Shown here piece by piece: positions 1,598-16,391 of a stretch of 64,000 nt of DNA; the stretch's first letter is position 1, and each line of letters begins with the position of its first letter. Position numbers and translations under genes: made by a program. The notes under the pieces were generated by a model. The model was given only the letters and a program-made list of their open reading frames with translations. It was not told the DNA's origin and made no database searches. The DNA comes from Sphingomonas paeninsulae. GTDB taxonomy: Bacteria; Pseudomonadota; Alphaproteobacteria; Sphingomonadales; Sphingomonadaceae. The stretch covers positions 2,121,001 through 2,185,000 of the forward strand of contig NZ_CP032829.1 in the NCBI RefSeq assembly GCF_003660165.1, given 5' to 3'.

Positions 1598-1600
1598 TAG
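233..1600 (+). CDS. IS110-family transposase (DEDD)
   Basis: This is a 455-residue transposase with the two IS110 domains. The N-terminal RuvC-like DEDD domain shows AIDIGS near residue 22, MESTGVYW near residue 70 and GRKTDVSDAAWLQRL near residue 103. The C-terminal transposase_20 domain has HGIGPSLALKLVGE near residue 300 and a serine-containing GNKISGGKLLS. It is longer than most IS110 proteins because of an extended middle region. The enzyme makes and resolves crossover intermediates under guidance of the element's bridge RNA. The reading frame is intact. The stop codon TAG (1598-1600) appears to come from the target IS3 DNA rather than from the element, which may alter the last residues. 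The start is the ATG after AAGGAG. Confidence 0.92.
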   Translation: MAKAKSKDIDALSMVNPGAAAIDIGSTMHMAAINPEADNKPVRAFGTFTGDLHDMARWFKECGVTSVAMESTGVYWIPAYEILEGHGFHVILVNARYAKNVPGRKTDVSDAAWLQRLHSYGLLRGSFRPEAEVATLRAYLRQRERLIEYAASHIQHMQKALMEMNVQLHHVVSDITGVTGMRIIRAIVAGERKPGVLAEMRDIRCHASVETICAALSGNWRDEHIFALCQSLALYDFYQTKIVECDRKLEIALQNLAVEQGHDIGNLPKVRTKTKQPNTPDFEVRSALYRVLGVDLTQIHGIGPSLALKLVGECGTDLAAWPSAKHFTSWLCLAPGNKISGGKLLSSKTRRSSSRAAALLRLAATTIGRSDTALGAFYRRLSARAGKAKAVTATARKIAVLFYNSLRYGMKYHDPGATQYEERYRSRVIGNLQRRAKAFGFALHELPAAPEMAVS

Positions 1601-1637
1601 GAAGGCCACGCAGTTCTTCGCGAGTCAGCGGCCATGA
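1596..1637 (+). pseudogene. IS3 orfA, C-terminal remnant
   Basis: Read in the frame starting at 1596, the bases give LRKATQFFASQRP and a stop. This matches the usual C-terminal end of IS3-family OrfA (leucine-zipper tail, then LRKAT.FFA). The frame is minus one relative to orfB, and orfB's ATG (1634-1636) overlaps the orfA stop (1635-1637). That is the normal IS3 arrangement for producing an OrfAB fusion by programmed -1 frameshifting. The helix-turn-helix part of OrfA has been cut away by the IS110 insertion, so this copy should no longer transpose by itself. Confidence 0.75.
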
Positions 1638-2491
1638 GGTTCGCATTCGTGGAGAACTGGCGTCATATATGGTCTGTTGAGACCATCTGCCGGGTGATGC
1701 GGGTCAGCCCTCGCGGCTATCGTTCCTGGCGGTCACGACCGATCAGTCGTCGGGAGCGGACAGACATGAAGGTGCTGGCCCATATCCGGGAACAGTATAG
1801 CCTGAGCCTTGGCAGCTATGGTCGTCCGAGGATGACGATGGAGTTGAAGGAGGCAGGCCTCGACGTTGGCGAGCGCCGGGTCGGGCGACTGATGAAGATC
1901 AACGGGATCAAGCCAGTTCGTACGCGCAAACACAAGGTGACAACTGACAGCAACCACCGCCTGGGGGTTGCGGCAAACTGGCTTGACGGTGACTTTGCCG
2001 CCGACGTACCCAACCGTAAATGGGCGGGCGACATCACCTACATCTGGACATCAGAAGGCTGGCTCTATCTTGCCGTCATTCTCGACCTGCATAGCCGTCG
2101 TGTGGTTGGTTGGGCTGTCAGTGACAGGATGAAGAAGGATCTGGCGATCAGGGCGCTCGATATGGCGGTACGCCTGCGTCAGCCACCTGAAGGCTGCCTG
2201 TTCCACTCCGATCGCGGCAGTCAGTATTGCTCCTACGACTATCAGAAGAAATTGCAGGCCTACGGCCTGCGACCCTCGATGAGCGGCAAAGGCAATTGCT
2301 ACGACAATGCCTCTGTCGAGACGTTTTTCAAAAGCCTGAAAGCAGAACTCATCTGGCGACGAAACTGGCCAACACGGCGACAGGCGGAAGCTGCCATCTT
2401 TCAATACATCAACGGCTTCTACAACACACGTCGCCGCCACTCATATCTCGGCGGCATCAGCCCGCTCGCGTTCGAAGCCAAGGTGGCTTAA
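1634..2491 (+). CDS. IS3-family transposase OrfB
   Basis: This 285-residue protein has an N-terminal HTH_21 region (SYGRPRMTMELKEAG) and a C-terminal rve integrase core. The DDE triad is visible as D in WAGDITYIWTSEGW, D in HSDRGSQYCSYDYQ and E in NASVETFFKSLKAEL, followed by YNTRRRHSYLGGISP. Length and motifs are normal for OrfB, so the coding part is intact. Without orfA it lacks the DNA-recognition half of the OrfAB transposase and has lost its normal promoter side. It may be transcribed from the neighbouring IS110 element. Confidence 0.93.
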   Translation: MRFAFVENWRHIWSVETICRVMRVSPRGYRSWRSRPISRRERTDMKVLAHIREQYSLSLGSYGRPRMTMELKEAGLDVGERRVGRLMKINGIKPVRTRKHKVTTDSNHRLGVAANWLDGDFAADVPNRKWAGDITYIWTSEGWLYLAVILDLHSRRVVGWAVSDRMKKDLAIRALDMAVRLRQPPEGCLFHSDRGSQYCSYDYQKKLQAYGLRPSMSGKGNCYDNASVETFFKSLKAELIWRRNWPTRRQAEAAIFQYINGFYNTRRRHSYLGGISPLAFEAKVA

Positions 2492-2528
2492 TGAAATAGG
2501 TGACCGGCACGAAACCGATACAAGTCCA

Positions 2529-3249
2529 CTTCCTGATATGAAGAGTTCAGGTGCGGGTGTCTTCATCATCAAGAGCGATGCCCCGATCGGGCCCACGCCA
2601 GGGATTTCGGCGAGCCGCCGGCTGCACTCATTTTCCCGATGCCACTGTGCCAGCTGTACCTCGACTTCTTCAATCTGCTCCTGGAGCTGGCAATATTCCT
2701 TGCCCTGCGACGCGAAGAGCGCGCGAGCAAGAGTCGGCACATCCTGGTTCGCCGCGACGCGATCGAGGAGCGCGGTAATCCTGCAGGTTCCCTTTGCTGC
2801 AATCAGGCCGAACTCCGCTGCGTAGCCCCGAATTGCGTTGATCAACCGGGTGCGCGTGCGGATCAGCCGTTCGCGTACGCTCACCAGCATGAGTGCAGCC
2901 TGCTGTTCCGCCGTCTTGACAGGCACAAACCGCATCGTCGGGCGGCCCATTGCCTCACAAATCGCTTCTGCGTCGGCCGCATCATTCTTGCCACGCTTCA
3001 CGTAAGGCTTCACCAGTTACGGCGCAATCAGCTTCACTTCGTGGCCATACGAGGTCGCAGCCATGCCAAATGGTGTGACGCGCCACAAGCTTCAATGGCG
3101 ATCAGTGTTGGCGACAGCTTCTCGAAGAAAGCCATCGTCTCGGTACGACGAAGTTTTTTGCGCAGGACAGGCTGCTCCGCGCCATTTACGCCATGCAGTT
3201 GGTAAACGTGTTTTGACGTGTCGATACCAACTCGGATAAGATTTTCCAC
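2529..3249 (-). pseudogene. IS110/IS1111-type transposase, broken and truncated
   Basis: The N-terminus MENLIRVGIDTSKHVYQLHG and then IAIEACGASHH are the standard start of the DEDD domain. The frame then shifts near 3060, and the continuing sequence (YGHEVKLIAP) runs into a TAA at about 3016-3018 where the family has glutamine (APQ.VKPYVKRGKNDAADAEAI). The rest, through EIPGVGPIGASLLMMKTPAPELF, is normal until the IS3 junction removes the catalytic-serine end. The gene has three lesions: a frameshift, a nonsense codon and a C-terminal truncation. The frameshift alone could be a sequencing deletion in a G run, but the truncation is real, so it is inactive. Confidence 0.85.
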
Positions 3250-3325
3250 GGACGGTCTCCTTCATGGGTTTTGTAACAACCTCATATTGGCACATCGCGA
3301 TGCCGTTTGGAGGCCGTCCACCCCA
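2529..3325 (-). mobile_element. IS110/IS1111-family remnant, split by IS3 insertion
   Basis: The leftward element carries the N-terminal two thirds of an IS110-type transposase. Its upstream boundary is about 3325, where the IS256 reading frame stops matching. From there, on the minus strand, the sequence TGGGGTGGACGGCC starts the new element. Its 3' part is missing because the IS3 element abuts at about 2529. It therefore inserted into IS256 and was itself hit by IS3. Confidence 0.65.
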
Positions 3326-4089
3326 ACACGTTTGAACGATCGTCTCGGGGAACACAGCCGTGATCGCGTCGGGAAAGCCTTTAAGGCCGTCGACGACGGC
3401 AAGCAGGATATCGTCGACGCCGCGGTGCTTCAGCTCGTTCATGACGCGCAACCAGAACTTGGCGCCTTCGTTCTGTTCGAGCCACAGTCCGAGCACCTCC
3501 TTGCCGCCATCGGCGCGGACGCCAAGCGCAATGTGGATCGCCTTGTTGCTCACCATCCCCTCATCCCGGATCTTGACCCGCAGCGCATCGAAGAAGACCA
3601 GCGGATAAACCGGATCCAGTGGCCGCTGCTGCCAGGTCACCACTTCGTCGAACACGGCATCGGTCACCGTGCTGTCAGATCGGGCGATACACAGATGCCG
3701 TAAAGGTCATGCAGGTGTCCCACGATCTCACGCGTGCTCATGCCGCGCGCGTACATCGAGATGATCTTCTCATCGAAGCCGGGAAAGCGCCGCTGGTATT
3801 TGGCGATCAGTTGCGGATCAAAGCTCGCCTGGCGATCGCGCGGCACCTCGAGTGCCAGCCTCCCTGTATCGGTCATCACCGTCTTGCGGCCATAACCATT
3901 GCGGCTGTTATCCGCCTGATCCTCCTGCCCAAGATGATAATCCATCTCGGCATTCAGAGCGCGCTCGGTCAGCGCTTTCTTCAGGCTATCCAGCAGGCCT
4001 CCCTGATCAAAGGCCGCACTGGCGGCACCGCCCGCAAGCAATTGGTCCAAAAGCTCATTGGCTATTATAGGCTCTTTGCGTCGTGACAT
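3326..4089 (-). pseudogene. IS256-family transposase, frameshifted and truncated
   Basis: The ATG at 4089 opens MSRRKEPIIANELLDQLL, and the N-terminal domain continues through NGYGRKTVMTDTGRL and GMSTREIVGHLHDLYG. A one-base deletion near 3680 (GATCTGACAGC where the family frame needs GATCTGATCAGC) breaks the frame. The next frame continues as TDAVFDEVVTWQQRPLDPVY and FFDALRVKIRDEG to FPETIVQTC, after which the match ends. Two catalytic aspartates are present (in FFDAL and LLAVVDGLKG). The catalytic glutamate and the C-terminal third are lost, so it is non-functional. Confidence 0.85.
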
Positions 4090-4146
4090 ATTGGGTTCCT
4101 TCTTTCCCTTTATGCCCGCCCACACACGAAATTTCGGATAGTCCCC
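3326..4146 (-). mobile_element. IS256-family remnant (innermost of the stack)
   Basis: The 5' end of an IS256 (Mutator-type) element on the minus strand. The terminal sequence around 4121-4146 reads, on the minus strand, GGGGACTATCCGAAATTTCG, which resembles IS256-family terminal repeats. The transposase gene starts about 57 bases inside it. The 3' half is missing beyond 3326, where the IS110/IS1111 element is inserted, and should lie outside the window. This is the oldest insertion of the stack. Confidence 0.75.
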
Positions 4147-4370
4147 AGCTCGAGTGTATCTATCCATTAATCTGCTTGGACGCGTCGATCGCACGCACGT
4201 AGCGGCATTTACTGAAGGTTTCAGGATACTTCCTCTGTATAGAGTTTTGCGATGTATATGAAAGTATATTGGAGTGGCACCGATCTACCTGATAATCAAA
4301 AGCTCATAAATTAGGACAACTCTTCCGTCTTTCGAATTCTAGCGCTCATTACAGGAACTTTCTAAAAATC

Positions 4371-5543
4371 ATGACGAAAACGACAGACCGGCCTGTGCTG
4401 CTAGACGTCAGCCGCTCAATCTGGCGCGCTTGGTCTGGTCGGCACCCGACCGGCATTGACAGGGTTTGCCTGTCCTATGTTCGGCATTATAGAACCCAGG
4501 CTCAGGCTGTGGTTCAATATAAAGGATTTCGCCGCATATTGTCGTCACCCGCGTCGTCAGCTTTATTCGATGTACTGCTCGACGATAGACCAGATTTTAG
4601 AAAACGCGTGGCGAGCTGGAGCGTTTACCACTTACCCGGTATCCTGCCTCGGCGTATGGGCAATATGCGACCTTATCTCAACGTCGGTCACACCGGACTT
4701 GATGATCCCGGTTTCCGTCGATGGCTCGACTGGTGCGGCGTCTCCCCAATCTATATGGTGCATGATTTAATTCCAATAAGTCATCCGGAGTACGCTCGCC
4801 AAGGCGAGGCGGAGAAGCACGTTCAGCGCATCAAGACGGTATTAGAGACGGCCACCGGTATTATCGGCAACAGCACGACGACACTTAACAAGCTTACAGA
4901 TTGGGGAAGTAGTAGACAACTCCCTTCACCCCCACAAAGAGCTATTTGGCTAGGCACAACAGTTTTGAAGGCTAAATCACAATCTCCAGCAGGCGATCCG
5001 TACTTCGTAGTGTTGGGTACGATTGAGGGCCGCAAAAATCATCTTCTTTTGCTAAATCTTTGGTTGAACTGGATCGAGAGTGGGAGGATGCCAGTTGCAC
5101 GACTCTACATCGTTGGTCAGCGTGGCTGGTCCGCAGAAAAAGCTCTGGCAATGCTCGACCAATGCGACGCACTCCGATCCTATGTAGTAGAATTAAACCA
5201 TTGCAGTGACGCGGCACTTGCCGACCTCATCGGCAATGCCCGAGCGCTCGTCTTTCCGTCACTTGCGGAGGGATATGGCATGCCACTTGCTGAAGCCATG
5301 ATGGCATGCGTGCCGGTTATCGCGAGCGACCTTCCCGTGTTCCGAGAAATTGCGGGAGAACTTCCAACCTATTGCGATCCGCTAGACAGTAAATCGTGGG
5401 AGGAAGCGATTTTATCTTTTACTCCAAGACACAGCGAGCCTCGGGCAAGACAATGCGCGGCGCTGACACATTACAAGGGGCCAACTTGGGCCGACCATTT
5501 TCAACAGGTTGACGGATGGCTTGAAGAACTTGACTTAATTTAA
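4371..5543 (+). CDS. Glycosyltransferase, GT4-like (GT-B fold)
   Basis: This 390-residue soluble protein likely transfers a sugar from a nucleotide donor during assembly of a surface polysaccharide. The C-terminal Glycos_transf_1 domain is clear: FVVLGTIEGRKNH (about 212-224), LYIVGQRGW (245-253) and the E-x7-E donor-binding motif in FPSLAEGYGMPLAEA (E300 and E308). The N-terminal region has TGIDRVCLSYVRHY, common in GT4 enzymes of exopolysaccharide clusters. Base composition is clearly lower in GC than the housekeeping genes, suggesting acquisition by transfer. No partner genes remain next to it on this strand. The neighbours are IS elements and, beyond IS66, a methyltransferase. Substrate unknown. 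Confidence 0.85.
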   Translation: MTKTTDRPVLLDVSRSIWRAWSGRHPTGIDRVCLSYVRHYRTQAQAVVQYKGFRRILSSPASSALFDVLLDDRPDFRKRVASWSVYHLPGILPRRMGNMRPYLNVGHTGLDDPGFRRWLDWCGVSPIYMVHDLIPISHPEYARQGEAEKHVQRIKTVLETATGIIGNSTTTLNKLTDWGSSRQLPSPPQRAIWLGTTVLKAKSQSPAGDPYFVVLGTIEGRKNHLLLLNLWLNWIESGRMPVARLYIVGQRGWSAEKALAMLDQCDALRSYVVELNHCSDAALADLIGNARALVFPSLAEGYGMPLAEAMMACVPVIASDLPVFREIAGELPTYCDPLDSKSWEEAILSFTPRHSEPRARQCAALTHYKGPTWADHFQQVDGWLEELDLI

Positions 5544-5599
5544 CATGCAAGTTCTCTCTTCGGCGAGAATAAATGCTTTTAGAACATCCTGCATTGCTG

Positions 5600-5607
5600 G
5601 TTGAATG
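5600..5607. repeat. IS66 target-site duplication, left copy
   Basis: GTTGAATG lies directly outside the left inverted repeat and is identical to 8106-8113. Eight bases is the duplication length expected for IS66. Confidence 0.95.
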
Positions 5608-5629
5608 GTAAGCGCTAAATCCTTCCCAC
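5608..5629. repeat. IS66 inverted repeat, tnpC side
   Basis: GTAAGCGCTAAATCC and the following seven bases match the reverse complement of 8084-8105 with a few differences. The GTAAGCG tip is typical of IS66. Confidence 0.93.
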
Positions 5630-5638
5630 GGGGATTGG

Positions 5639-7201
5639 TTATGCGGCTTGCGCAGTGATGCTCGGCAGGTTCGCGGCCCGGCTGTCAGTCCAGTTATATG
5701 GCAACAGATCATCGATGGGGTCACCATCGTTTCGAAGGATGATCCGGCCAAGAACGTCGGTGAGATAGGCTTGCGGATCGATGGCGTTGAGCTTGCAGGT
5801 TTCGACCATGCTGGCGATGATTGCCCAGTTTTCGGCACCGAGGTCGTGACCTGCGAAGAGTGCATTTTTCCTTTGCAGCGCGATCGGCCGCATCGAACGC
5901 TCGACGGTATTGTTGTCGAGCTCGATGCGCCCGTCTTCGAGGAAGCGATTGAGGCCGTTCCAGTGATTGAGGGCATAGCCGATTGCTTCTGCTGTTCCCG
6001 AGCCACGTGGCAGTCTGGGCAACATATCTTTCAGCCAGGGCTTCATCGCCGCGACCAGAGGCGCGGCTTCGGCCTGACGGATTGCGCGGCGATGCTCGGG
6101 GTCTAATTCCCGGATTTTGGCCTCGATGGCGTACAGCCGGGCGATCTGGCGCAGCGCCTCATCGGCGACCGGCGCGTTGCCGCCTTTGGTCGCGTCGAAG
6201 AAGCCCCGCCGCACGTGCGCCCAACAAAAGGCGAGCTTGCCCGCGCCACCGGCACGATCGGCTGCCTCGATATGCTTATAGGCCCCATAGCCATCACACT
6301 GGACGATGCCGTGATAGCCGCCGAGCAGCTGCGCCGCCCAGACTTTGCCGCGCCCCGGCATGTAGCTGTAGACGACCGCCGGCGGATCGGTCCCGCCATG
6401 AGCACGGTCGTCGCGGGCGATCGCCCATAAATAGCCGGTTTTTGTCTTGCCCGTCCCCGGTGCCAGCACCCGCGCAGTGGTCTCATCGACAAAGAGCCGG
6501 TCACCCGACAGCAGTTCAGCCTTCATGCGGCGGGTAATCCGCCCGAGCCACGCGGCGCTGCGTCCCGCCCAGTTGCACATCGTACCGCGGTCGATTTCGA
6601 TGCCCTGGCGACGCAGTGCCTGTGCCTGCCGGTAAAAAGGACCATGGTCGGCGTATTTCCTGACGATCATGTCGGCGATCAGCGCCTCGGTTGGAAGGCC
6701 GCCCGGCACGACATGCTTTGGCGCGGGTGCCTGGAACACACCGTCGCTGCATGTGCGGCACGCCATCTTCGGACGCACCGTTACGATCACGCGATACTGG
6801 ACGGGGATGACATCGAGCCGACTGGCGACATCCTCGTCGATACAGTGCAGCGCACCGCCGCAGCAGGGACATTCGGTTTCGACCGGCATGATCACTTCGC
6901 GGATCCGTGGCAGATGCGCTGGCAGCGAAGCGCGTTCGGTGGTTTCCTTGCGCTTCTTCTCGGCTTTCGGACCGACCGGCGATTGTTCGGCGAGCGCCAA
7001 CAGCTCGGCCTGCGCGACTTCGATATCCTCGAGCGCCAGCGCCAGTTGATCGGCACTGAGCTTTTCAGAGCGCCTGCCGAACGTTGCCCGCTTCAGCTGA
7101 TCGAGCAGATGCTGCATCCGCGCCTCGCGTTCGAGCCCTGCGATTATCATCGCTTTGAGGACTCCGACATCGTCGGGAAGGTCGGCTTCGCTCGCAGACA
7201 T
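5639..7201 (-). CDS. tnpC: IS66-family transposase TnpC
   Basis: This 520-residue transposase has all IS66 parts. There is an N-terminal leucine-rich coiled region with LDQLKRATFGRRSEKL (about 33-48). A zinc-finger region has CPCCGG and CRTC. The DDE core shows LFVDETTARVLAPG, VQCDGYGAYKHI and ELDNNTVERSMRPIALQRKN. The C-terminal IS66_C tail ends LTDVLGRI...DDLLPYNW. The length is normal and the frame is open. TnpC catalyses transposition, and IS66 also needs TnpA and TnpB, both present just upstream, so the element may be active. Confidence 0.97.
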   Translation of the reverse strand: MSASEADLPDDVGVLKAMIIAGLEREARMQHLLDQLKRATFGRRSEKLSADQLALALEDIEVAQAELLALAEQSPVGPKAEKKRKETTERASLPAHLPRIREVIMPVETECPCCGGALHCIDEDVASRLDVIPVQYRVIVTVRPKMACRTCSDGVFQAPAPKHVVPGGLPTEALIADMIVRKYADHGPFYRQAQALRRQGIEIDRGTMCNWAGRSAAWLGRITRRMKAELLSGDRLFVDETTARVLAPGTGKTKTGYLWAIARDDRAHGGTDPPAVVYSYMPGRGKVWAAQLLGGYHGIVQCDGYGAYKHIEAADRAGGAGKLAFCWAHVRRGFFDATKGGNAPVADEALRQIARLYAIEAKIRELDPEHRRAIRQAEAAPLVAAMKPWLKDMLPRLPRGSGTAEAIGYALNHWNGLNRFLEDGRIELDNNTVERSMRPIALQRKNALFAGHDLGAENWAIIASMVETCKLNAIDPQAYLTDVLGRIILRNDGDPIDDLLPYNWTDSRAANLPSITAQAA

Positions 7202-7269
7202 GGACTATTTCTGGCATGTTTTTCCGCCGTCGCAACCACCATTTCGACGAGCAGATTCAGGCGTGCGAC

Positions 7270-7623
7270 CTACTGCGCAACCTGCGGTTTTTGCACCCGG
7301 GCCGCATGCATTCGGGTCCATTGCAGACCCTCGAACAGCGCCGACGCCTGGCTCGGCGTCAGTCGCATCACGTCGTCACCAACCCGCGGCCAGCAAAAGC
7401 CGCCGGTCTGGAGAACCTTGCTCACCAGCACCAGTCCCGTGCCGTCCCAGACCAGCAGCTTGATCCGGTTCGCGCGTTTCGAGCGGAAGATATACGCCAC
7501 GCCCGAGAACGGCTTCAAACCAAGCTCATTCTCGACCAGCGCTGCCAGGCTGACGGCTCCTTTCCTGAAGTCGACCGGCTTGGTCGCAACCATCACTTTG
7601 AGCGGTCCCGGCGGAAGGATCAC
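7270..7623 (-). CDS. tnpB: IS66 accessory protein TnpB
   Basis: This 117-residue protein is the IS66 Orf2-like family: LKVMVATKPVDFRKG near the start, then FSGVAYIFRSKRANRIKLLVWDGTGLVLVSK, which is the family signature. It is required with TnpA for IS66 transposition, though its biochemical role is not settled. Its ATG overlaps the stop of tnpA by four bases (ATGA-type), indicating translational coupling, and tnpC follows 68 bases further on. Confidence 0.95.
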   Translation of the reverse strand: MILPPGPLKVMVATKPVDFRKGAVSLAALVENELGLKPFSGVAYIFRSKRANRIKLLVWDGTGLVLVSKVLQTGGFCWPRVGDDVMRLTPSQASALFEGLQWTRMHAARVQKPQVAQ

Positions 7624-8054
7624 GTCGCCTGCCTGATCGCGGTAAGCACGCGTTCGATGTGCGCAGCCGTGACATTTTCGGGAACATGGATCGTTATCGC
7701 ACCGGCATGGATCACGATCTCCGCGGCGGATGATCCTGACGGCGACGGCAGGCCAGGCTCGTCGACAACCACCGGCACAAACGCCATCTCACGCGCCTTC
7801 AGCACCGTGTGCCGCCACGCATAAAGCTGCTGGGGTAAAAGGTCATTGGAGCGCGCGATCGCCGCGATATTTGCACCGGCGACAAAGCTCTCCTCGACGA
7901 TCCGCGCCTTGGCATCGGGTGCCCACATCCGGCGTGCAGCACCCGCCGGGATCACGTCCATACGCTGAGGACGACGGCCACCCTTGCTTTCGAAAGTCCT
8001 TTCGAACGTTGTTTCGATACCTGACACCAAGCTACCCCTCACATGAGGCGGCAA
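7620..8054 (-). CDS. tnpA: IS66 accessory protein TnpA
   Basis: This is a 144-residue first gene of the element. It carries a helix-turn-helix of the transposase_8 type: WAPDAKARIVEES followed by GANIAAIARSNDLLPQQLYAWR (about residues 58-80). The C-terminal part IHVPENVTAAHIERVLTAIR is typical of IS66 TnpA. The ATG at 8054 lies 51 bases inside the element end. The first residues before the helix-turn-helix look poorly conserved, so a downstream start is possible. Confidence 0.92.
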   Translation of the reverse strand: MPPHVRGSLVSGIETTFERTFESKGGRRPQRMDVIPAGAARRMWAPDAKARIVEESFVAGANIAAIARSNDLLPQQLYAWRHTVLKAREMAFVPVVVDEPGLPSPSGSSAAEIVIHAGAITIHVPENVTAAHIERVLTAIRQAT

Positions 8055-8083
8055 AGCATACTCAGATCACGGATTGCCGATAT

Positions 8084-8105
8084 GTGGGGGAGAATTGGCG
8101 CTTAC
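8084..8105. repeat. IS66 inverted repeat, tnpA side
   Basis: Read on the minus strand this starts GTAAGCGCCAATTC and pairs with 5608-5629. It sits directly next to the right target duplication. Confidence 0.93.
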
Positions 8106-8113
8106 GTTGAATG
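8106..8113. repeat. IS66 target-site duplication, right copy
   Basis: GTTGAATG, identical to 5600-5607. Confidence 0.95.
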
Positions 8114-8469
8114 TTAAGCTGGACACGAATCTACCTGAAACCTTTGCCATGCGTGCGGCAAGCTGGGCACATCCAAAAACCTCTCGCCCATTTGCTAAGG
8201 ATCTGATTCATTCGTCTTGACGGGAGGCGGTGATGAAGCACTCAGGCTCGTTCGGATTGGTGCCCAGATGATTCGATGACTCCGGAGCAGGCGCCGCACA
8301 TGGCCAACGTGATCCAGAGTGCGCCGGTCCGCTGAGCAGATCTCATGTGGCAGAAGGGTCAGTTGAGATTTTGGGCTCGGGCTCAGCGTCTATCAGGCGC
8401 GATAAGGATGCTGCAATTGAGCAACTTCGAAGGACATCTTTTCGCCTTTGGTGTGCGAAAGTCGGATCG
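8114..8469. other. Intergenic stretch without a recognisable gene
   Basis: About 356 bases between the IS66 element and the 3' end of the methyltransferase gene. There is a strong ribosome-binding-like GGGAGG at about 8221-8226 ahead of an ATG at 8233, but it opens only a 12-codon frame. Another very short frame starts at 8276. I recognise neither, and the stretch may be debris of an older mobile element. The longer rightward frame from 8347 overlaps the methyltransferase gene on the other strand and is not credible. Confidence 0.5.
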
Positions 8470-9756
8470 CTAGGCCGTGGGCGTGATATTTATCGCAAGG
8501 CCCAAAAGCCGATCGTCTGCATGCCCGTTAACATCTCTGGGGCGCAGTAGCGGGGGCGTGCGGATCGTGACGGTGCTGATACCCGATTCAGGACGGCTAA
8601 TCGTCGCCCATATTTCTGAATTCCCCGTAACAGTTTGAACCTCTGTGCCATCGACGAATAGCCTACACCGCTCCGCAAAATCGGGGACAATCTGCTGCTG
8701 AAACGGAACGCGTAATTTGCACTGCCCGTCTGGCAGTTGAACGATCCACCGAAGTTCGTCTAGAGCTGTCCAGCGAAACCCCGTTGTGCGGCTTCCTTCA
8801 ACGCCATGATAGGCCTCATCATCGCTCAACGGTGCGCCAAGCAACTGAGGCATTGCAACTTTGGCTCCAACGCGACGGGCGAACGCCTCCAACGGTGACC
8901 CTGGATAGCAAAAACAATGCGTAGCCCCTCCACTATACAAATCTAGTCCCGCGCGATCAGCAATCAGCGCTAGAGCCGTATCGGTATAAAGTGATACATG
9001 ACCGTTTCGTGGCGATGCATACCACCAGTTGCACCGAAGCTGTTCGATGTCTTCCGGTTGCAAGCATTGCGAGAAGACGACGCCGCCGGTTGGCTCCAAA
9101 AAAGAAATGAAATTTGCTATGGTTTCCATCGGTCGCGGAGAATGCTCAATTACCTCAAAGCACGTAATGACATCGAAAAGCCCCGCGGGGCGCTCTGGTA
9201 GCGAAACAGGATCATATGCTTCAAAATTAAAGCCAGCATTCCGCATATGCTGCGCGAATAATCCACTTCCGGCCCCGTAGTCGAGGAACCGACAGCCCTT
9301 GTACTCGGCGAGCAATTCGGCAAAACTATCTGCTAGTTGGCGGGGTCGTGCATATTCGTACCCGACATCAACGAGGCTCAAATCATCGTTATAAATAAAT
9401 TGTCCAAAATCGGCGACTGTCCAGTCATCAGTGAAATCAGTAAAAAGAAACCCGCACGCAAGGCATCGAAAATAGGAAACCGCGACGCCGCTAGGCCCGT
9501 ATACGTAACCATGACATTTATTGAAGTCCACGACATCGAAGAAAGGCGCGGCTCCTCCGCAGACTTTGCATGATTTCGAATGTAGATCTGAATTTTTGGT
9601 GGAGAGGCTTGGTAGGTTTCTAAGAATCGTGCGGGGGTCCATAGATTTCCTAGCTGAAACGAGGCTAGCTTTCAGCATAATGGCTCTGACAGGTGTTGCC
9701 CACTCCAATTCGCAAACTTCCAGATCGTCCACATAATCAGACTTTCGAAGCTCCAC
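8470..9756 (-). CDS. Class I SAM-dependent methyltransferase
   Basis: A 428-residue protein. Near the N-terminus two CxxC pairs (C63/C66 in CKVCGG and C98/C101 in CLACGF) probably bind zinc, as in sugar C-methyltransferase-like proteins. The SAM-binding motif I is FLDYGAGSGLFAQH (about 157-170), followed by FDVITCFEVIEHSPRP (motif II and post-motif region). A C-terminal extension of about 150 residues is unassigned. The arrangement fits sugar or polysaccharide modification, in keeping with the nearby glycosyltransferase, but the substrate cannot be named. A shorter start at M39 (9642) is possible because the first 38 residues look unlike the family. GC content is low relative to the chromosome. 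Confidence 0.82.
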   Translation of the reverse strand: MELRKSDYVDDLEVCELEWATPVRAIMLKASLVSARKSMDPRTILRNLPSLSTKNSDLHSKSCKVCGGAAPFFDVVDFNKCHGYVYGPSGVAVSYFRCLACGFLFTDFTDDWTVADFGQFIYNDDLSLVDVGYEYARPRQLADSFAELLAEYKGCRFLDYGAGSGLFAQHMRNAGFNFEAYDPVSLPERPAGLFDVITCFEVIEHSPRPMETIANFISFLEPTGGVVFSQCLQPEDIEQLRCNWWYASPRNGHVSLYTDTALALIADRAGLDLYSGGATHCFCYPGSPLEAFARRVGAKVAMPQLLGAPLSDDEAYHGVEGSRTTGFRWTALDELRWIVQLPDGQCKLRVPFQQQIVPDFAERCRLFVDGTEVQTVTGNSEIWATISRPESGISTVTIRTPPLLRPRDVNGHADDRLLGLAINITPTA

Positions 9757-10137
9757 CGCTCTTTAGCGCTGCTCGACCAGCCACCGGATCGCTTCAGCGG
9801 CATCCGCGCACTGCATTTGCACGCTGCGCATCCGTTGTCGCTGAGCATAGCCATTGTTTCACGAAACCAAACAGTTGCCTCAAGGCAGCGTGCCCGGCCT
9901 ACTGCAGGATGGACTGTTCGGAGCGAACGGTTCAATTCTGCAATGCCGAGTCGTATGGTCAGAGGCTATGGTATGCGGAACCGGACCCGGACCCAGTAGG
10001 TCGCTCCCTCTCGGATCATGTGCTGAGCCACTCCGCCTTACCCACATACCGGTGTAACAGGGTAGTGTAACCGCGGTATGCCTGTTCGTTTCGACGAAGA
10101 AGCTATGGAATTGTAAAATAGTGATTTTCTGCGGTTT
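9757..10137. other. Intergenic stretch between methyltransferase and tRNA-Arg
   Basis: About 380 bases with no convincing gene. On the minus strand a short frame ends ADAAEAIRWLVEQR just upstream of the methyltransferase, which could be the C-terminal scrap of a lost gene, but it is closed by a stop about 31 codons upstream. The overlapping frames on both strands show no family signature. Its position at the 3' end of the tRNA makes it the likely edge of the accessory region. Confidence 0.5.
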
Positions 10138-10214
10138 TGGTGCGCCCGAGTGGATTCGAACCACTGGCCTCAAGATTAGAAGTCTCGTGCTCTATCCAAC
10201 TGAGCTACGGGCGC
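10138..10214 (-). tRNA. tRNA-Arg (anticodon TCT)
   Basis: On the minus strand the gene folds as a standard cloverleaf. The acceptor stem pairs GCGCCCG with CGGGCGC, the D arm is TAGCTCAGTTGGATAGAGC, the anticodon loop is CTTCTAA with anticodon TCT, and the T loop is GGTTCGAATCC. The CCA end is encoded (10138-10140). The 3' end faces the IS-rich accessory DNA, the usual orientation for a tRNA used as an integration site. Confidence 0.96.
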
Positions 10215-10996: not shown

Positions 10997-11662
10997 TTAA
11001 CCGAGTGCTGCCATCAATCCCTCGAACATCCGGCGGCCATCGGTGCCGCCATGGGCGCTTTCGATAACGCGTTCGGGATGCGGCATCATGCCCAGAACAT
11101 TGCCAGCGTTGTTGACGATGCCAGCGATATCGCGCGCCGATCCGTTGACTGATTCGGCATAACGCAGCGCGACGCGTCCTTCGCCTTCGAGCCGGTCGAG
11201 CGTTTCGTCATCGGCAAAATAATTGCCGTCGTGGTGCGCGACCGGGACAGTGATGCGCTCATCGGCCTTGTAGCGACTGGTAAAGGCGGTCTGCGCGTTG
11301 GACACGGTCAACATGACATCGCGACAGACGAATCGAATGCCGGCGTTGCGCATCAATGCGCCAGGCAGGAGACCTGCTTCAGTCAACACCTGAAAGCCGT
11401 TGCACACACCAAGGACCGCGCGACCCTGACCGGCTGCATCGACGACGGCGCGCATGACAGGCGAACGTGCCGCCATCGCGCCCGAACGAAGATAGTCGCC
11501 GTAGGAAAAGCCGCCGGGAACCGCGATCAGATCGAGGCCGTCGGGCAGAGTGCTTTCACCGTGCCAGACCATCGCGGGAGCCTCGCCGGTGACGTCGCGC
11601 AACGCTGTCGCAAGGTCGCGGTCGCAGTTCGATCCAGGAAAGACGATGACCGCCGACTTCAT
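10997..11662 (-). CDS. purQ: Phosphoribosylformylglycinamidine synthase subunit PurQ
   Basis: A 221-residue class I glutamine amidotransferase that supplies ammonia to the PurL synthase in step four of purine synthesis. The nucleophile C87 lies in GVCNGFQVL, and the catalytic H195 and E197 are in GMMPHPERV. The N-terminal FPGSNCDRD and [14 protein letters not shown] are characteristic of PurQ. It overlaps purS by four bases. purL is not adjacent in this window. Full length. Confidence 0.97.
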
Positions 11663-11895
11663 GAGCTAACGGGCTCGATCCGGAAATTCTCGATCACGGT
11701 GTTCGCAAGCAGCTTGTTGCACATCGCCTCGATGTCGGCGGCGGAGGTGCCGTCGGCAAGGTCGAGTTCGATCAGCTTGCCCTGACGGACGTCGTTGACG
11801 CCGGTAAAGCCCAGCCCTTCGAGCGCGTGATGAATGGCTTTGCCCTGCGGGTCGAGGACGCCGGTTTTGAGAGTCACGAAGACGCGTGTTTTCAT
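11659..11895 (-). CDS. purS: Phosphoribosylformylglycinamidine synthase subunit PurS
   Basis: This 78-residue small subunit bridges PurL and PurQ in the three-part FGAM synthase found in Gram-positives and Alphaproteobacteria. The sequence [17 protein letters not shown], then [13 protein letters not shown] and the tail [16 protein letters not shown] are family-typical. Its stop overlaps the purQ start. Upstream lies the Slam gene instead of purC, which is the more usual neighbour. Confidence 0.96.
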
Positions 11896-11943: not shown

Positions 11944-13353
11944 TCAGAAATAGCGGGCCAGATTGAAGGCCAGTCGCGAACGTTCGCTTTGATAAAGGCT
12001 CATGGATGAGTCTATGCGTGAAAAACTATAGGTCATGCTCGGCGAAAAGCCGAGGACGCGGACCGACCGCAGACCGACGTACAAGCGCGCGTTATAGCGC
12101 CAGTCGACGCGTGGACTGACTGCCAGAAATGCGAGCGGCGCATTGTAAGTGGCATGGCTGAAACCGCCCGAAATGCCTGCATTTATGCCGTGTTTCAGTT
12201 CACCCCCGATGCCGAGGCTGAGACCAATTTCCTCATCTGAATAGGCTTCGGATTTTAGCTTGTCCGTTCGATAGAAAATGCTGGCACTCGCAACCATCGA
12301 GCGCATCACAACGCGTTCGTAGGTTCCATAAACGCCCGTTGTCCAGCCATTGTAAATTGGACTGTAACCAGAATCGGTGTGGCGTGAGTCGAGAGTAAGT
12401 CCGACGCGCTGACCGGCATCCAGAGTACGTTCGAGCGTTGCACGACCGCCAAATTGGGTCGCGGCCCGGACGCCGCCATAATAGCGTTGGCTGGCAATGC
12501 CTTCGACCGAGATCGTCATCCGATCCGATAGTTTCAGTTCGGGGCCAGCGGCAAATTGACCGGTGAAATCGTCTGCGCTTTGGCCTGCGTAATTGACACC
12601 CTGAGCGTCGATGTCGGCAAGCAACGCGATGTTTTCACCGATGTGATGGCGAATGCCAGCTGAGAGGCTGGCTGTTTGGCCGATCCCGGAGCGAGATCGA
12701 ACATTGCCGCTCAGTGCAAGCGCGTTGGGAATTGTCTGGTTACCGTAAACCAGATCGACGCTTTGTGCGTTGGTGCCATTCGTAACATTGGTGTCGGGGG
12801 CAATTCCGAAATCGAATGACAGATGATGGTCACGACCGTCGCGCAGCAATCCGCGGGACGCGCGGATGGTTGCCTGTATTTCGGGAGGAAGCTTGGCATC
12901 CTGTTCGGCAAGACGAAAATTATAGTCGGCGGCGTCGCGTTTGCCCTGAAGCATTAGCGCGCGCGCCAGTTCGAGACGGATGCGGGTCTGCCCCGGATTG
13001 CCGACGAGGGCCGCGCGGAACTCCTTGACAGCGCCTTCGGTGTCGCCGGTTTCGACGGCGATATATCCGGTCAGGAAATGGGTTTCCATGCTAAGTCCGG
13101 GAGCCTTGGAAAGTGCCGCGACCAGAGGGCGGGCCTCATCGAAACGTCGGGCCGCGACGAGTTTGGAAACGGCGGCCAACATTTCCTGTGTCGTCAGACG
13201 GACGCTGCACACGCCCGCTACGCAGGCCGGCTGCCCTGTGTCGGTAGGCGTGGCGGCATGGGCGGTGCCGATTGAAAGGCATGCTGTCGTCAGTGCCGCG
13301 ACTGTGCCACGGCCCGAAAAACTCCGGCCCAAATGATGGTGCGACACGCGCAT
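11944..13353 (-). CDS. Slam-like outer-membrane translocon (DUF560), type XI secretion
   Basis: A 469-residue protein with a signal peptide (hydrophobic stretch ending AHA, about residue 33). A tetratricopeptide-like helical domain follows at about 50-165 (RRFDEARPLVAAL, TGYIAVETGDTEGAVKEFRAAL, RIRLELARALML). Then comes a C-terminal beta-barrel of about 300 residues with alternating strands, ending in the aromatic NLARYF expected of an outer-membrane barrel. This is the domain order of surface lipoprotein assembly modulators, which move lipoproteins to the cell surface. The gene directly upstream encodes a TbpB-like lipoprotein, the usual cargo. An alternative GTG start lies two codons in and is better spaced from the GGAG. 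Interrupts the purC-purS neighbourhood. Confidence 0.85.
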   Translation of the reverse strand: MRVSHHHLGRSFSGRGTVAALTTACLSIGTAHAATPTDTGQPACVAGVCSVRLTTQEMLAAVSKLVAARRFDEARPLVAALSKAPGLSMETHFLTGYIAVETGDTEGAVKEFRAALVGNPGQTRIRLELARALMLQGKRDAADYNFRLAEQDAKLPPEIQATIRASRGLLRDGRDHHLSFDFGIAPDTNVTNGTNAQSVDLVYGNQTIPNALALSGNVRSRSGIGQTASLSAGIRHHIGENIALLADIDAQGVNYAGQSADDFTGQFAAGPELKLSDRMTISVEGIASQRYYGGVRAATQFGGRATLERTLDAGQRVGLTLDSRHTDSGYSPIYNGWTTGVYGTYERVVMRSMVASASIFYRTDKLKSEAYSDEEIGLSLGIGGELKHGINAGISGGFSHATYNAPLAFLAVSPRVDWRYNARLYVGLRSVRVLGFSPSMTYSFSRIDSSMSLYQSERSRLAFNLARYF

Positions 13354-13428
13354 CTCCTGCGGTATTCCGTCGTCCGGCGGAAAAGTTCATTTCAGTGGAT
13401 TGGCGCGTGCGGCGTACCGGCCTTTTCG

Positions 13429-14616
13429 TTAGGGGCCTTTCGCGCCAACAAATGCACCTTGAATATCAACGCGCTGTCCGGGAATGCCGCCAACGATCCG
13501 GAAGTTTCCGCCGACATTGACCGCATTCGGACCGTAAAAGGCACCATCTACTGAACTTGCGCCGGCGACATTCGACCCTGGCGAGATGGGCGAGAAATTG
13601 ACGGGAAGGGTTGTGCCATCAGGATTTTTGAAGGTGGCAGTTGCGAATTGTCCTGTGAATCCTCCTGTATGAACAAGATCAATCGTCGCGTTCGCTGTGG
13701 CATTGAATGTCGCGCCTGCCGCTACTGTCGTGTTTGTGACTTCGACGTTGTTGAGGAAGGCCTTGTCCACAGTTCCGGCAAATGTCAGGCCGGCCGTCGC
13801 TTTCGAAAAGTCGACTGCAACTGTGCTGGTGCCATAAACCCACTGAAAATAACGGGAGTTATTGACCATAGATGCCAAGAAACCGCCAGTATAGGATCCA
13901 GTGCCAGTTGTCGGAATACTGCTTTGGATCGTGGGTGCTCCAAAGACAAGAGCTCCACGCTCATAGATGTTGGTAGTCGCAGCGGTAGTGGTTCCCGCTG
14001 CCGGCGTATTTATGACGTCACGTACATAGCCGGCCAGGCTGACATAGTTCGTGCTAACGCCGGGTCTCTGATAAAAGAACGTATATTCGTCGCTAACCGA
14101 CGCACCGCCTGCGGTGGCCGCTGGACTGTTGGATGGTCCAAGTGATTCCAGATAGTTGAAACCGTCCAGAGAGGGCGCGCTCGCCGTCGGAGTAGCAGTC
14201 GGTGAAAAGTCGGTGCGGTGAGCCGGGTCCTGAAACCGAACGTTTGTGCTAATACCCGCTTTTGTATCGGCGAGGGTAAGCGTGAAAATTCCGTCTCGGG
14301 GACTATAATCGACGGTGCCGCTCGGCGTGCGGACGGTGCTGGCATTCCCCTGATAAAGCGAGGTGTTTCCGGTGACTTGAAGCGACTGGAGTGCGCCGAC
14401 AGCGTTGAAGCTCGTGTCAGCGGTCAGCGAAAGGAAGCCGACTGGAGCAGTCGTCGTGCCCGATCCAGAGCCCCCGGTCACCCCACCGCCAGTTCCGCCG
14501 GAAACGGTGCCCCCCGTCGATCCAACGGGAGCGGCGGTGCCGCCGATTGTCTGAGGGCCATCTGCACCACATGCGGTCAAAGCAGTTGCAGCCAGAAGAG
14601 CCAGGTAAATGCGCAT
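13429..14616 (-). CDS. TbpB-like surface lipoprotein, probable Slam cargo
   Basis: A 395-residue lipoprotein. The start at 14616 gives a compact signal peptide MRIYLALLAATALTAC with lipobox LTAC. A GTG four codons earlier is too close to the GGAG. After a Gly/Ser/Thr-rich linker the body is beta-rich. The C-terminal end contains VDGAFYGPNAVNVGGNFRIVGG and then GAFVGAKGP, resembling the C-terminal handle/barrel signature (GxFYGPNAxExGG) of transferrin-binding-protein-like proteins, PF01298. It is followed 75 bases later by the Slam gene. I infer it is exported to the outer surface by that translocon. No TonB-dependent receptor is adjacent, so its ligand (iron carrier, heme or other) is unknown. 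Confidence 0.78.
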   Translation of the reverse strand: MRIYLALLAATALTACGADGPQTIGGTAAPVGSTGGTVSGGTGGGVTGGSGSGTTTAPVGFLSLTADTSFNAVGALQSLQVTGNTSLYQGNASTVRTPSGTVDYSPRDGIFTLTLADTKAGISTNVRFQDPAHRTDFSPTATPTASAPSLDGFNYLESLGPSNSPAATAGGASVSDEYTFFYQRPGVSTNYVSLAGYVRDVINTPAAGTTTAATTNIYERGALVFGAPTIQSSIPTTGTGSYTGGFLASMVNNSRYFQWVYGTSTVAVDFSKATAGLTFAGTVDKAFLNNVEVTNTTVAAGATFNATANATIDLVHTGGFTGQFATATFKNPDGTTLPVNFSPISPGSNVAGASSVDGAFYGPNAVNVGGNFRIVGGIPGQRVDIQGAFVGAKGP

Positions 14617-14636: not shown

Positions 14637-14667
14637 TTTAGTCGGGAATTCATCTTCCCCGACTAAA
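14637..14667 (-). promoter_or_regulatory. 10-bp perfect hairpin before the lipoprotein gene
   Basis: TTTAGTCGGG (14637-14646) is perfectly complementary to CCCGACTAAA (14658-14667), with an 11-base loop. It lies between the lipid kinase gene and the TbpB-like gene, just ahead of the ribosome binding site. No T run follows on the minus strand, so it is not a classical terminator. It may be a processing or attenuation element separating the two expression levels. Confidence 0.5.
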
Positions 14668-14699
14668 TACAATTCGAATGGTTAAGAGCGCGTAAACGC

Positions 14700-15605
14700 C
14701 TATTTGGCAGGTCCCGCAAAAACCTCCAGCGCGCCGGGCTTTACGCTGAATCTCAATGGCGTCTGAAGGCGTATGATTTCGCCATCCACGGCGACTTCAA
14801 TCGTTCGCGCATGGGATGACAGTTCCAGCGTTTCGCAAACGCCGAGTGTCGCAAAATCGCGATCGGAATCACTTTTGCCGATCATCGCGCGCAGGCCAAA
14901 TCCGATCAGCCCGGCCCGACTGTTGGGTGACACTGCGAAAACCGAAAGCTTGCCGTCGTCGAGTGCGTCGCGCTGGCCGACTTTACCGAGATCGAGCGAA
15001 TAGACGTTGTTACCAATGAACAGCAGCGGTGTGCGGATTGGCTTGGCCGCCCCATCCATCGTCAGTCGCAAGCGGTGGTGGCGCAGGTTACCGAGAGTTT
15101 GCCAGCCAGCTGGAATATTGGCGATCCATTTCGGTAGGCGATGGCTTTTTTGCAGGCCATCGCGGACGCGAACCATCGCGGGGTACATGCCGATCGAGGC
15201 ATTGTTGACGAAGACCCGGTCATTGACGCTCGACAGGTCGATCTTGCGTTTGTGGCCGTCGGCGATAACTTTTGCCGCACTGGGCAGGTCCATCGGAATG
15301 CCAAGTTCACGGGCGAGATGATTGCGTGTTCCGAGCGGGAGAATGCCGAGCGTTGCGCCTGCCTTTGCTGCAATGGCAGCGGCCGATCCTAATGTGCCAT
15401 CGCCACCGCCGACGATGACCGCGCCAGTCTTTGCAGCGGTTTCGACGCGGGCTGCGATATCGTCGCCGGCGATGGCTTCAATGGTGACGGAAATGCCCGT
15501 CGTTGCGAACGCCGCCTTGATCTGATCGATCAGCGCATCACCGGCTCGCGAGGCCGCGCCGCCGTCCTTGTTGACGATGACGGCCAGAGGCCTTGCTTTT
15601 GCCAG
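14700..15605 (-). CDS. Diacylglycerol kinase-family lipid kinase
   Basis: A protein of about 301 residues. The nucleotide-binding GGGDGT is at about residues 66-71, followed by LGILPLGTRNHLARELGIP (about 90-108) and the C-terminal FIGNNVYSL and GKLSVFAVSP. These proteins phosphorylate diacylglycerol or a related lipid at the inner membrane. No ATG, GTG or TTG exists upstream of the kinase motif. The frame is open back to the purC stop codon, and the first usable codon is CTG at 15603-15605, immediately after that TAA. The first ATG (15291-15293) would lose the ATP site. I therefore annotate from CTG, assuming translational coupling to purC or an unnoticed base error. Confidence 0.78.
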   Translation of the reverse strand: MAKARPLAVIVNKDGGAASRAGDALIDQIKAAFATTGISVTIEAIAGDDIAARVETAAKTGAVIVGGGDGTLGSAAAIAAKAGATLGILPLGTRNHLARELGIPMDLPSAAKVIADGHKRKIDLSSVNDRVFVNNASIGMYPAMVRVRDGLQKSHRLPKWIANIPAGWQTLGNLRHHRLRLTMDGAAKPIRTPLLFIGNNVYSLDLGKVGQRDALDDGKLSVFAVSPNSRAGLIGFGLRAMIGKSDSDRDFATLGVCETLELSSHARTIEVAVDGEIIRLQTPLRFSVKPGALEVFAGPAK

Positions 15606-16391
15606 TTACCGGCCCCGTTTTTTGCGCTGTGTCTCGAGGTCGAGAACGACGTTATCTGCGCCCTCTGGCAACAGCCCAAGACGACGCGCGACTTCCTGAT
15701 AGGCTTCCACTTCGCCGCCGAGATCGCGACGGAAGCGGTCCTTGTCGAGCTTTTCGTTGGTGACCATGTCCCACAGGCGGCAGCCATCGGGGCTGATCTC
15801 GTCTGCCAGAATAACGCGGGCGTATTCGTTTTCCCACAATCGACCGAATTCGAGTTTGAAATCGACCAGCTTGATGCCGACGCCGGCGAACAGACCACAC
15901 ATGAAGTCGTTTACGCGAATCGCCATGTCGGCGATGTCGTGCATCTCTTCCTGGCTCGCCCAGCCGAAGCACGCGATGTGTTCATCGGTGACAAGCGGGT
16001 CGCCCAGCGCATCGTCCTTGTAATAATATTCGATGATCGTGCGCGGAAGCTGCTGCCCCTCCTCGATGCCGAGGCGTTTCGACAGCGACCCTGCGGCGAC
16101 GTTGCGAATCACGACTTCGATCGGAATGATCTCGACCTGGCGAATCAGCTGCTCACGCATATTCAGGCGACGCATGAAGTGATGCGGGATGCCGATCGTG
16201 CCGAGCAGCGTGAAGATATGCTCCGAGATTCGGTTGTTCAGCACGCCCTTGCCGTTGATCGTGCCCTTCTTCTGGGCATTGAACGCGGTCGCATCGTCCT
16301 TGAAATACTGGATAAGTGTGCCCGGCTCCGGACCTTCATACAGTATCTTGGCCTTGCCTTCGTAGATTTGGCGGCGGCGTGTCATCGGCAT
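15606..16391 (-). CDS. purC: SAICAR synthase PurC
   Basis: This 261-residue enzyme joins CAIR and aspartate with ATP to form SAICAR in purine synthesis. The signature regions are [34 protein letters not shown] near the N-terminus (two overlapping motifs), then [17 protein letters not shown] and [15 protein letters not shown] (about 192-206), followed by [14 protein letters not shown]. Full length. The next gene begins directly at its stop. In related genomes purC is usually followed by purS and purQ, while here three other genes intervene. Confidence 0.97.

Follow-up and report, generated by a model that had tools for sequence, protein, structure and literature searches.

We examined a window of 64,000 nucleotides from Sphingomonas paeninsulae (contig NZ_CP032829.1, positions 2,121,001 to 2,185,000 of the forward strand); "the window" refers to this whole stretch, and positions are counted from its first nucleotide. 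Two adjacent genes, both on the minus strand and lying within a block of purine biosynthesis genes, encode an outer-membrane protein of the type XI secretion system (T11SS), called Slam, and a lipoprotein, its putative cargo. The two genes, their parts and the candidate promoter element of the cargo gene are as follows:

11944-13353, minus strand: Slam/T11SS outer-membrane protein (DUF560, SlipAM), 469 amino acids (aa)
12838-13191, minus strand: tetratricopeptide repeat (TPR) part of Slam
11947-12828, minus strand: predicted barrel of Slam
13429-14616, minus strand: predicted surface lipoprotein (cargo), 395 aa, with a signal peptide, a lipobox at Cys16, a G/S/T-rich linker, a handle-like region and a C-terminal barrel
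13927-14436, minus strand: handle-like region of the cargo
13432-13926, minus strand: 8-stranded C-terminal barrel of the cargo
14680-14696, minus strand: CtrA-type box TTTA-N7-TTAACC (then AT) in the cargo promoter, the only match in the window, with 0.02 expected

A Slam protein and a single-barrel lipoprotein

The gene at 11944-13353 encodes a Slam/T11SS outer-membrane protein made of a TPR part and a barrel. Both protein families, Slam and cargo, were tested through 27 aligned members at a match threshold of E <= 0.1. The window Slam reached 65 bits against the SlipAM model PF04575 (E 1.1e-17; curated cut-off, 22), and the model matched 27 of the 27 Slam family members. TPR repeats were found at about aa 60-150 (TPR_16, 37.8 bits, above the cut-off of 32.7), while the Slam-specific TPR model PF24575 gave 24.5 bits, below its cut-off of 35.2. 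The AlphaFold2 (AF2) model comprises 7 helices and then 15 strand elements, with a mean predicted local distance difference test score (pLDDT) of 63 and values below 50 for residues 437-469. Its fold neighbours are mainly TPR chains, joined for the barrel by CymA and OmpG, which are 14-strand pores; Slam structures are absent among these neighbours, which counts neither way. A profile search of the whole genome returned this one Slam.

The adjoining gene encodes a single-lobe lipoprotein that ends in an 8-stranded barrel of the TbpB/fHbp/NHBA type. Taken singly, the window cargo scores low: PF01298 (TbpB_B_D) gave 23.5 bits on the cargo alone, below the curated cut-off of 26, and 26.6 bits in the genome scan, where the neighbours in frame were included; the NCBIfam model slam_lipo gave 30.7 bits and did not reach its cut-off of 80; and a single-sequence search of the PDB with the cargo found nothing significant (best, TbpB, E 0.057). 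The assignment nonetheless stands, because PF01298 was matched by all 27 cargo family members (best E 2.5e-10) and the family profile hit solved structures, namely TbpB chains (E 1.3e-9) and a structure of the C-lobe only (E 6.3e-7). Moreover, slam_lipo was matched by 26/27 members. In the AF2 model (mean pLDDT 57), the last ~165 residues are mostly well folded, except for a loop near 345-351, and form 8 long strands. The best fold match of this barrel is the C-terminal domain of NHBA (Z 17.6 over 145 residues, root-mean-square deviation 2.3), and the TbpB C-lobe (Z 15.6), fHbp (Z 15.4) and hemophilin (Z 15.1) also match. It is the only TbpB-type match in the genome.

A preliminary description of this DNA had already read the two frames, at these coordinates and on this strand, as a Slam and a TbpB-like lipoprotein, and the pair is borne out by the family-wide, profile and fold matches. 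Among the checks that it proposed, the domain search cleared the cut-off for Slam and fell short of it for the cargo taken alone, and structure prediction folded the cargo barrel well within models whose overall means are those given above.

The cargo resembles several known systems in part. As in neisserial fHbp, itself a Slam cargo, and in NHBA, one 8-stranded barrel closes a protein with a lipobox; however, identity in the fold alignments is 11-26%, and the ligands of these proteins are not expected in a sphingomonad. With TbpB and LbpB it shares the PF01298 barrel family and a Slam partner. In contrast to TbpB, which has two lobes, each with a handle and a barrel, its 395 aa hold one barrel match, and no receptor lies in the window. 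The "Sphingomonas surface protein" architecture, likewise a T11SS cargo of sphingomonads, has proline-threonine repeats and 2-3 handle-barrel pairs in the portion of its description available to us (PMC12282271), whereas the window cargo has one barrel and a G/S/T linker; neither proline-threonine repeats nor multiple TbpBBD domains were found in its sequence and single domain hit. Finally, the pair resembles T11SS subcluster 1C, in which, according to the accessible part of Grossman et al. 2021 (PMC8406197), Sphingomonadaceae from the environment predominate and no member has been characterised, in placing a TPR-plus-barrel outer-membrane protein beside a TbpBBD lipoprotein. Its purine location, CtrA-type promoter and cargo exchange, set out below, differ from 1C as described there, and we leave its membership in 1C unassigned. 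The cargo is most likely carried out by the neighbouring Slam.

Location of the pair in Sphingomonadaceae

A Slam relative was found in 59 of 199 Sphingomonadaceae genomes. Of these carriers, 22 have a Slam of the close clade, with 34-80% identity to that of the window when the window itself is set aside, and the remaining 37 have distant Slams only, mostly 22-30% identical. Cargo relatives occur in 25/199 genomes of the family, the match being weak in three of these (E 5e-4 to 8e-4). Slam is present in 6 of the 7 genomes of the window's genus (5/5 good ones) and in 25 of the 32 genomes of another genus, g85 (22/24 good ones). In an order-wide draw, 6/196 genomes carried Slam, every one of them from the same family.

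The family also has another, more distant clade of Slam proteins (L047-L059), here called the second Slam clade. A lipoprotein gene adjoins it in 6/6 readable loci, and proline-threonine-rich linkers occur in three of these six readable cargo genes; proline-threonine-rich cargo is thus found beside this clade. Several genomes contain both clades.

Location was counted over 45 close-clade Slam loci, 24 of which come from genus g85; the genome G021 is not among them, its pair being divided over contigs. The other features that bear on location are these:

15606-16391, minus strand: purC, upstream flank (PF01259, 278 bits)
11659-11895, minus strand: purS, downstream flank (PF02700, 100 bits)
10997-11662, minus strand: open reading frame (ORF) that we take to be purQ from its position and familiar sequence features; downstream flank and tree marker, adjoining purS in 40/45 loci
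14700-15605, minus strand: diacylglycerol/lipid-kinase-like gene (YegS/MamU type), with YegS_C and MamU matches on a 197-aa part
14637-14667, no strand assigned: inverted repeat (arms of 10 bp) in the leader of the cargo gene, from the scan of upstream regions

The order purC-cargo-Slam-purS-purQ on one strand was found in 38 of the 45 loci and in 7 of the 12 resolvable genera, with a cargo-Slam gap of mostly 0-50 bp. Among the other seven loci, two show purC alone, one adjoins a contig edge and has purS and purQ, one has its purS at a distance of 9.8 kb, and three are elsewhere. In the window the lipid-kinase gene sits between purC and the cargo gene, as the preliminary description had noted in placing kinase and pair between purC and purS. 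The kinase is present in only 3/45 loci, all in the window's own genus; the pair, with its conserved location, has thus long occupied this site, and the kinase appears to be a later arrival at the locus. The same description had treated as telling against itself the case that related genomes always hold all three genes between purC and purS with no transfer signal: for two of the three genes, cargo and Slam, this placement is seen in most loci though not in all (the 38), and the kinase is present in three. The kinase frame lacks an ATG, GTG or TTG close to the N-terminus and begins at a CTG that immediately follows the purC stop; in two relatives the start is ATG (G146) or a GTG overlapping the purC stop (G200). 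The window kinase may have a non-standard start or be a shortened protein.

That purC and purS are normally neighbours, as had been supposed, does not hold for this family, in which they are often apart. Spacing was taken from 119 genomes with both coordinates among the matches listed, including 8 purC places added from the loci and the window. Among the 98 of these that lack the close clade, the gap was below 400 bp in 16, 400-2000 bp in 11, 2-4 kb in 25 and 4-12 kb in 24, and in 22 the genes lay at a greater distance, on different contigs or strands, or in another order. Twenty such gaps, picked for a size of 3.1-8.2 kb, were read, and 19 contained a relative (27-38% identity; one matched over part of its length only) of an M16 peptidase whose window copy lies at 43369-46242 on the plus strand. 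This peptidase was not found in the DNA examined around the 45 Slam loci, so that in this sample the slot between purC and purS holds either the Slam pair or the M16 peptidase. Divergent Slam pairs hidden in the other gaps were considered and rejected, as tblastn of the 20 gaps gave no credible match.

At 233-10214, IS110 and IS66 transposases, a methyltransferase and a low-GC stretch (52-54%) were seen, ending at a tRNA-Arg 0.8 kb from purQ; this may be an island beside the Slam pair, with the pair outside it. The GC content of the pair is 56-60%, near that of the flanks. A search for RNA elements in the 9-19.5 kb region was negative, the tRNA-Arg alone reaching the gathering score.

Apparent cargo exchange and the cargo promoter

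The mature cargo appears to have been replaced by recombination repeatedly, with much more exchange across species and genera than is seen for Slam. Relative to its closest relative, G146, the window shows 100% identity in PurC, 91% in PurQ, 75% in Slam and only 49% in the cargo (G353, G199 and G036 were omitted from the identity alignments of locus genes). Three genomes of other genera, G089, G194 and G077, have cargoes 55-56% identical to that of the window and Slams 45-50% identical. In the tree of the mature cargo the window clusters with these three genomes from three other genera (support 100/99), while its own genus forms one clade in the Slam tree (100/99) and in the PurC+PurQ tree (97/94); the cargo and Slam trees have 26 rows, after thinning of 16 genus-g85 rows, and the PurC+PurQ tree has 21. 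Approximately unbiased (AU) tests on the cargo rejected genus monophyly for the window's own genus (p 1.4e-38), g89 (p 7.6e-9) and g78 (p 3.5e-6), and a clade of the four rows sharing the allele was rejected for Slam and for PurC+PurQ (p ~5e-5 each). Over the first 40 cargo residues, which include the signal peptide, the highest identities to the window are those of G146 (78%) and G200 (66%), both of its own genus; the three rows that share the allele reach 41-58%, and G193, also of the own genus, only 47%.

Within genus g85 (23 genomes), both other topologies are rejected by the cargo data (Slam tree, p 1e-5; pur tree, p 7e-5) and by the Slam data (both p <1e-50; p 1e-55 for the pur tree). 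The pur data conflict with the cargo tree (p 3e-6) and, to a milder degree, with the Slam tree (p 0.006). Sliding nucleotide identity between G363 and G370 falls to 63-75% over the mature cargo and is 76-93% elsewhere, and between G363 and G345 it is 80-90% over the mature cargo and 66-86% over Slam. For this latter pair, the synonymous divergence (dS) of the cargo is 0.68, below that of every other compared gene (1.15 to saturated), which is the mark of a recent exchange. Residues 351-395 of the cargo are the best conserved, with 66% mean identity to the window in 26 relatives against 41-42% for the other mature part. This tail may therefore be the handle for export, and the remainder of the cargo may be under selection.

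The cargo gene also has a conserved promoter element. The window box, TTTACGCGCTCTTAACC at 14680-14696 on the minus strand, has TTTA as its first half instead of the canonical TTAA, and would occupy a -35 position. In the part of the source available (PMC6180460), the full CtrA site is given as TTAA-N7-TTAA with the variant TTAACCAT, and activating sites lie near -35. Box counts were made over 43 of the 45 loci, leaving out G353 (contig edge) and G199 (fragment). Within 200 nt upstream of the cargo, TTWA-N7-TTAACC was found in 34/43 loci, in 38 if a spacing of 6-8 is allowed, and TTAACC alone in 41. The median distance to the cargo start codon is 69 nt; in G085 the cargo start was placed too far downstream, which shifts the distance and leaves the count unaffected. 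Shuffles of the cargo upstream regions contained the looser form of the box twice in 9000. None of 158 regions upstream of other locus genes contained the box (Slam, 0/43; PurS, 0/38; PurQ, 0/38; PurC, 0/39), and none of 6 cargo upstream regions of the second Slam clade did. In 20 loci (728 kb, both strands counted), all 12 exact matches lie just before the cargo, and the box also precedes the cargo in G123, a locus away from purine genes. CtrA is encoded in the genome (NF045991, 415 bits; cut-off, 350), and a paper in the reference list of PMC9437464 concerns, by its title, the control that the CtrA phosphorelay exerts on motility and biofilm in Sphingomonas melonis. CtrA control of the cargo promoter is thus a well-supported prediction.

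Elsewhere in the genome, one box lies ~90 nt before the start of ctrA itself (L132; the start was set by the CtrA family match). By eye, two further same-strand ORFs follow a box by 80-91 nt (L129 and L130), and a GGDEF/EAL-type gene of cyclic di-GMP (c-di-GMP) metabolism follows one by ~175 nt (L131); another c-di-GMP gene (L133/L134) runs toward the box and was not counted. Four further box places are found between convergent genes, within an ORF or with no gene downstream. The ORFs L129-L132 offer a start for a list of CtrA targets in this genome. The inverted repeat at 14637-14667 may be an operator or a hairpin. It was rejected as a conserved element, for it was not seen before the cargo in the other loci compared, a few of which have unrelated repeats further upstream.

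Competing explanations and meaning

We read the locus, with somewhat better than even confidence, as a stand-alone Slam unit that has stayed in place for long periods, has its own CtrA-type promoter and displays a cargo exchanged as a cassette. The cargo would be synthesised with a lipoprotein signal, undergo acylation at Cys16 and be brought to the outer membrane, where the neighbouring Slam would move it onto the cell surface. The barrel end would be the part that docks on and is recognised by Slam, and the handle, loops and linker would face outward. Transcription would start at the pair's own promoter, with the CtrA-type box as -35 region to which CtrA is predicted to bind, so that display should depend on the state of CtrA in the cell, not on purine demand, in whatever direction and with whatever timing CtrA may act. 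Slam and the last ~45 residues of the barrel would stay comparatively constant as the mature cargo is swapped between species at the same site. Such swapping is what one would expect of a surface protein that some other party recognises and thereby puts under pressure; the selective agent might be a phage, a predator, a competitor, a host or a variable ligand.

Several points weigh against this reading. The locus set is weighted to genus g85, for which reason a count by genus is fairer than one by locus. The AF2 model of the cargo, built from 3 sequences, is of low quality apart from the barrel. The identities were already known when the shared-allele group was defined. Slam is itself not strictly vertical within genus g85, given that Slam data and pur data reject each other's tree, although the conflict is largest for the cargo; and cargo and Slam distances correlate (Pearson 0.92), so that exchange is not free. 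As for the box, the upstream regions used as controls consist mostly of coding sequence or are short, the first half-site is TTTA and not TTAA in 11 of the 12 exact matches, and 5/43 loci lack the box even with a spacing of 6-8. Genome-wide, 10 matches (nine places) against 5 for the reversed pattern represent a weak enrichment, and five of the nine places precede a same-strand ORF within 200 nt.

The main rival, which we regard as unlikely, is that the pair serves heme or metal capture, a hemophilin- or TbpB-like cargo handing its ligand to a TonB receptor encoded elsewhere. Hemophilin and the TbpB C-lobe are indeed among the neighbours of the cargo barrel, 61 TonB-receptor plug domains are encoded elsewhere in the genome, and a TonB receptor lies near 120/185 Slam clusters according to the portion of PMC5449769 at hand. 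However, the window contains none of the 61 plug domains, which agrees with the preliminary description and leaves the pair without the adjacent TbpA-type receptor that marks TbpB; the nearest one (C3:2096717-2097046) is ~36 kb from the Slam gene. Nor was a receptor seen by eye, without a hidden Markov model test, among ORFs of at least 560 aa in 20 relative loci. NHBA and fHbp, which are not known to need a TonB receptor, match the barrel as well as or better than hemophilin and TbpB. Capture of a purine or nucleoside, which would explain the purine-block site and a shared transcript, seems improbable to us. The order with purC, purS and purQ is kept, and the available part of PMC12282271 notes, in bulk, purine-metabolism and nucleotide-synthesis genes near T11SS genes; yet a conserved promoter motif of its own stands between the preceding gene and the cargo, the box precedes the cargo even in G123, away from purine genes, and the M16 peptidase occupies the same slot in 19 of the 20 other gaps read.

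The divergence of the cargo could also have arisen in place, by fast evolution under diversifying selection without any exchange, which we consider equally improbable. The ratio dN/dS is higher for the cargo than for Slam in several pairs (G089-G148: 0.84 vs 0.29), but an allele group of four genera cuts across the genus with 100/99 support, the AU tests reject genus clades for the cargo, and the low cargo dS between G363 and G345 points to recent exchange. Recent acquisition of the pair as a unit by this lineage, the horizontal insertion first proposed, is very improbable. Insertion sequence (IS) elements and a low-GC stretch beside the tRNA-Arg do lie ~1-11 kb from purQ; against this, site and order are identical in 38/45 loci, the Slam and flank (PurC+PurQ) trees agree in recovering the window's genus, and the GC content of the pair is close to that of its flanks. 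Recent transfer of the whole pair was rejected on the common site and order and on these trees. The word "recombined" in the same proposal proved right for the cargo, since the signal of transfer is by far strongest in its mature region, and is not supported for the pair.

We found no earlier report of a fixed purine site of the pair in Sphingomonadaceae, of a CtrA-type promoter or of cargo exchange in sphingomonads in the open-licence literature (preprints not included), and CtrA is not named in the T11SS/Slam papers found there. According to PMC12282271, every T11SS protein that has been verified by experiment belongs to the animal-associated cluster. Sphingomonads share the same T11SS anatomy, with no TonB partner nearby and with cassette-like exchange of the cargo. 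Variation of the cargo in animal-associated T11SS is usually ascribed to host immunity, and the Slam cargo of neisseriae undergoes antigen variation.

It is tentatively proposed, as something short of an even chance, that this is a CtrA-controlled T11SS at a fixed site, probably timed by cell cycle or lifestyle, in which one Slam exports whatever cargo allele the locus holds and alleles circulate between genera. If so, altering CtrA should alter expression of the cargo, and this would be, as far as the open-licence literature reaches, the first T11SS tied to a developmental regulator. The naturally paired alleles could serve to map both the part that Slam recognises, with the conserved tail of the barrel as candidate, and the part on which selection acts, with the rest of the cargo as candidate. 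The sphingomonad pair would thus be a free-living counterpart of the antigen variation of neisserial Slam cargo.

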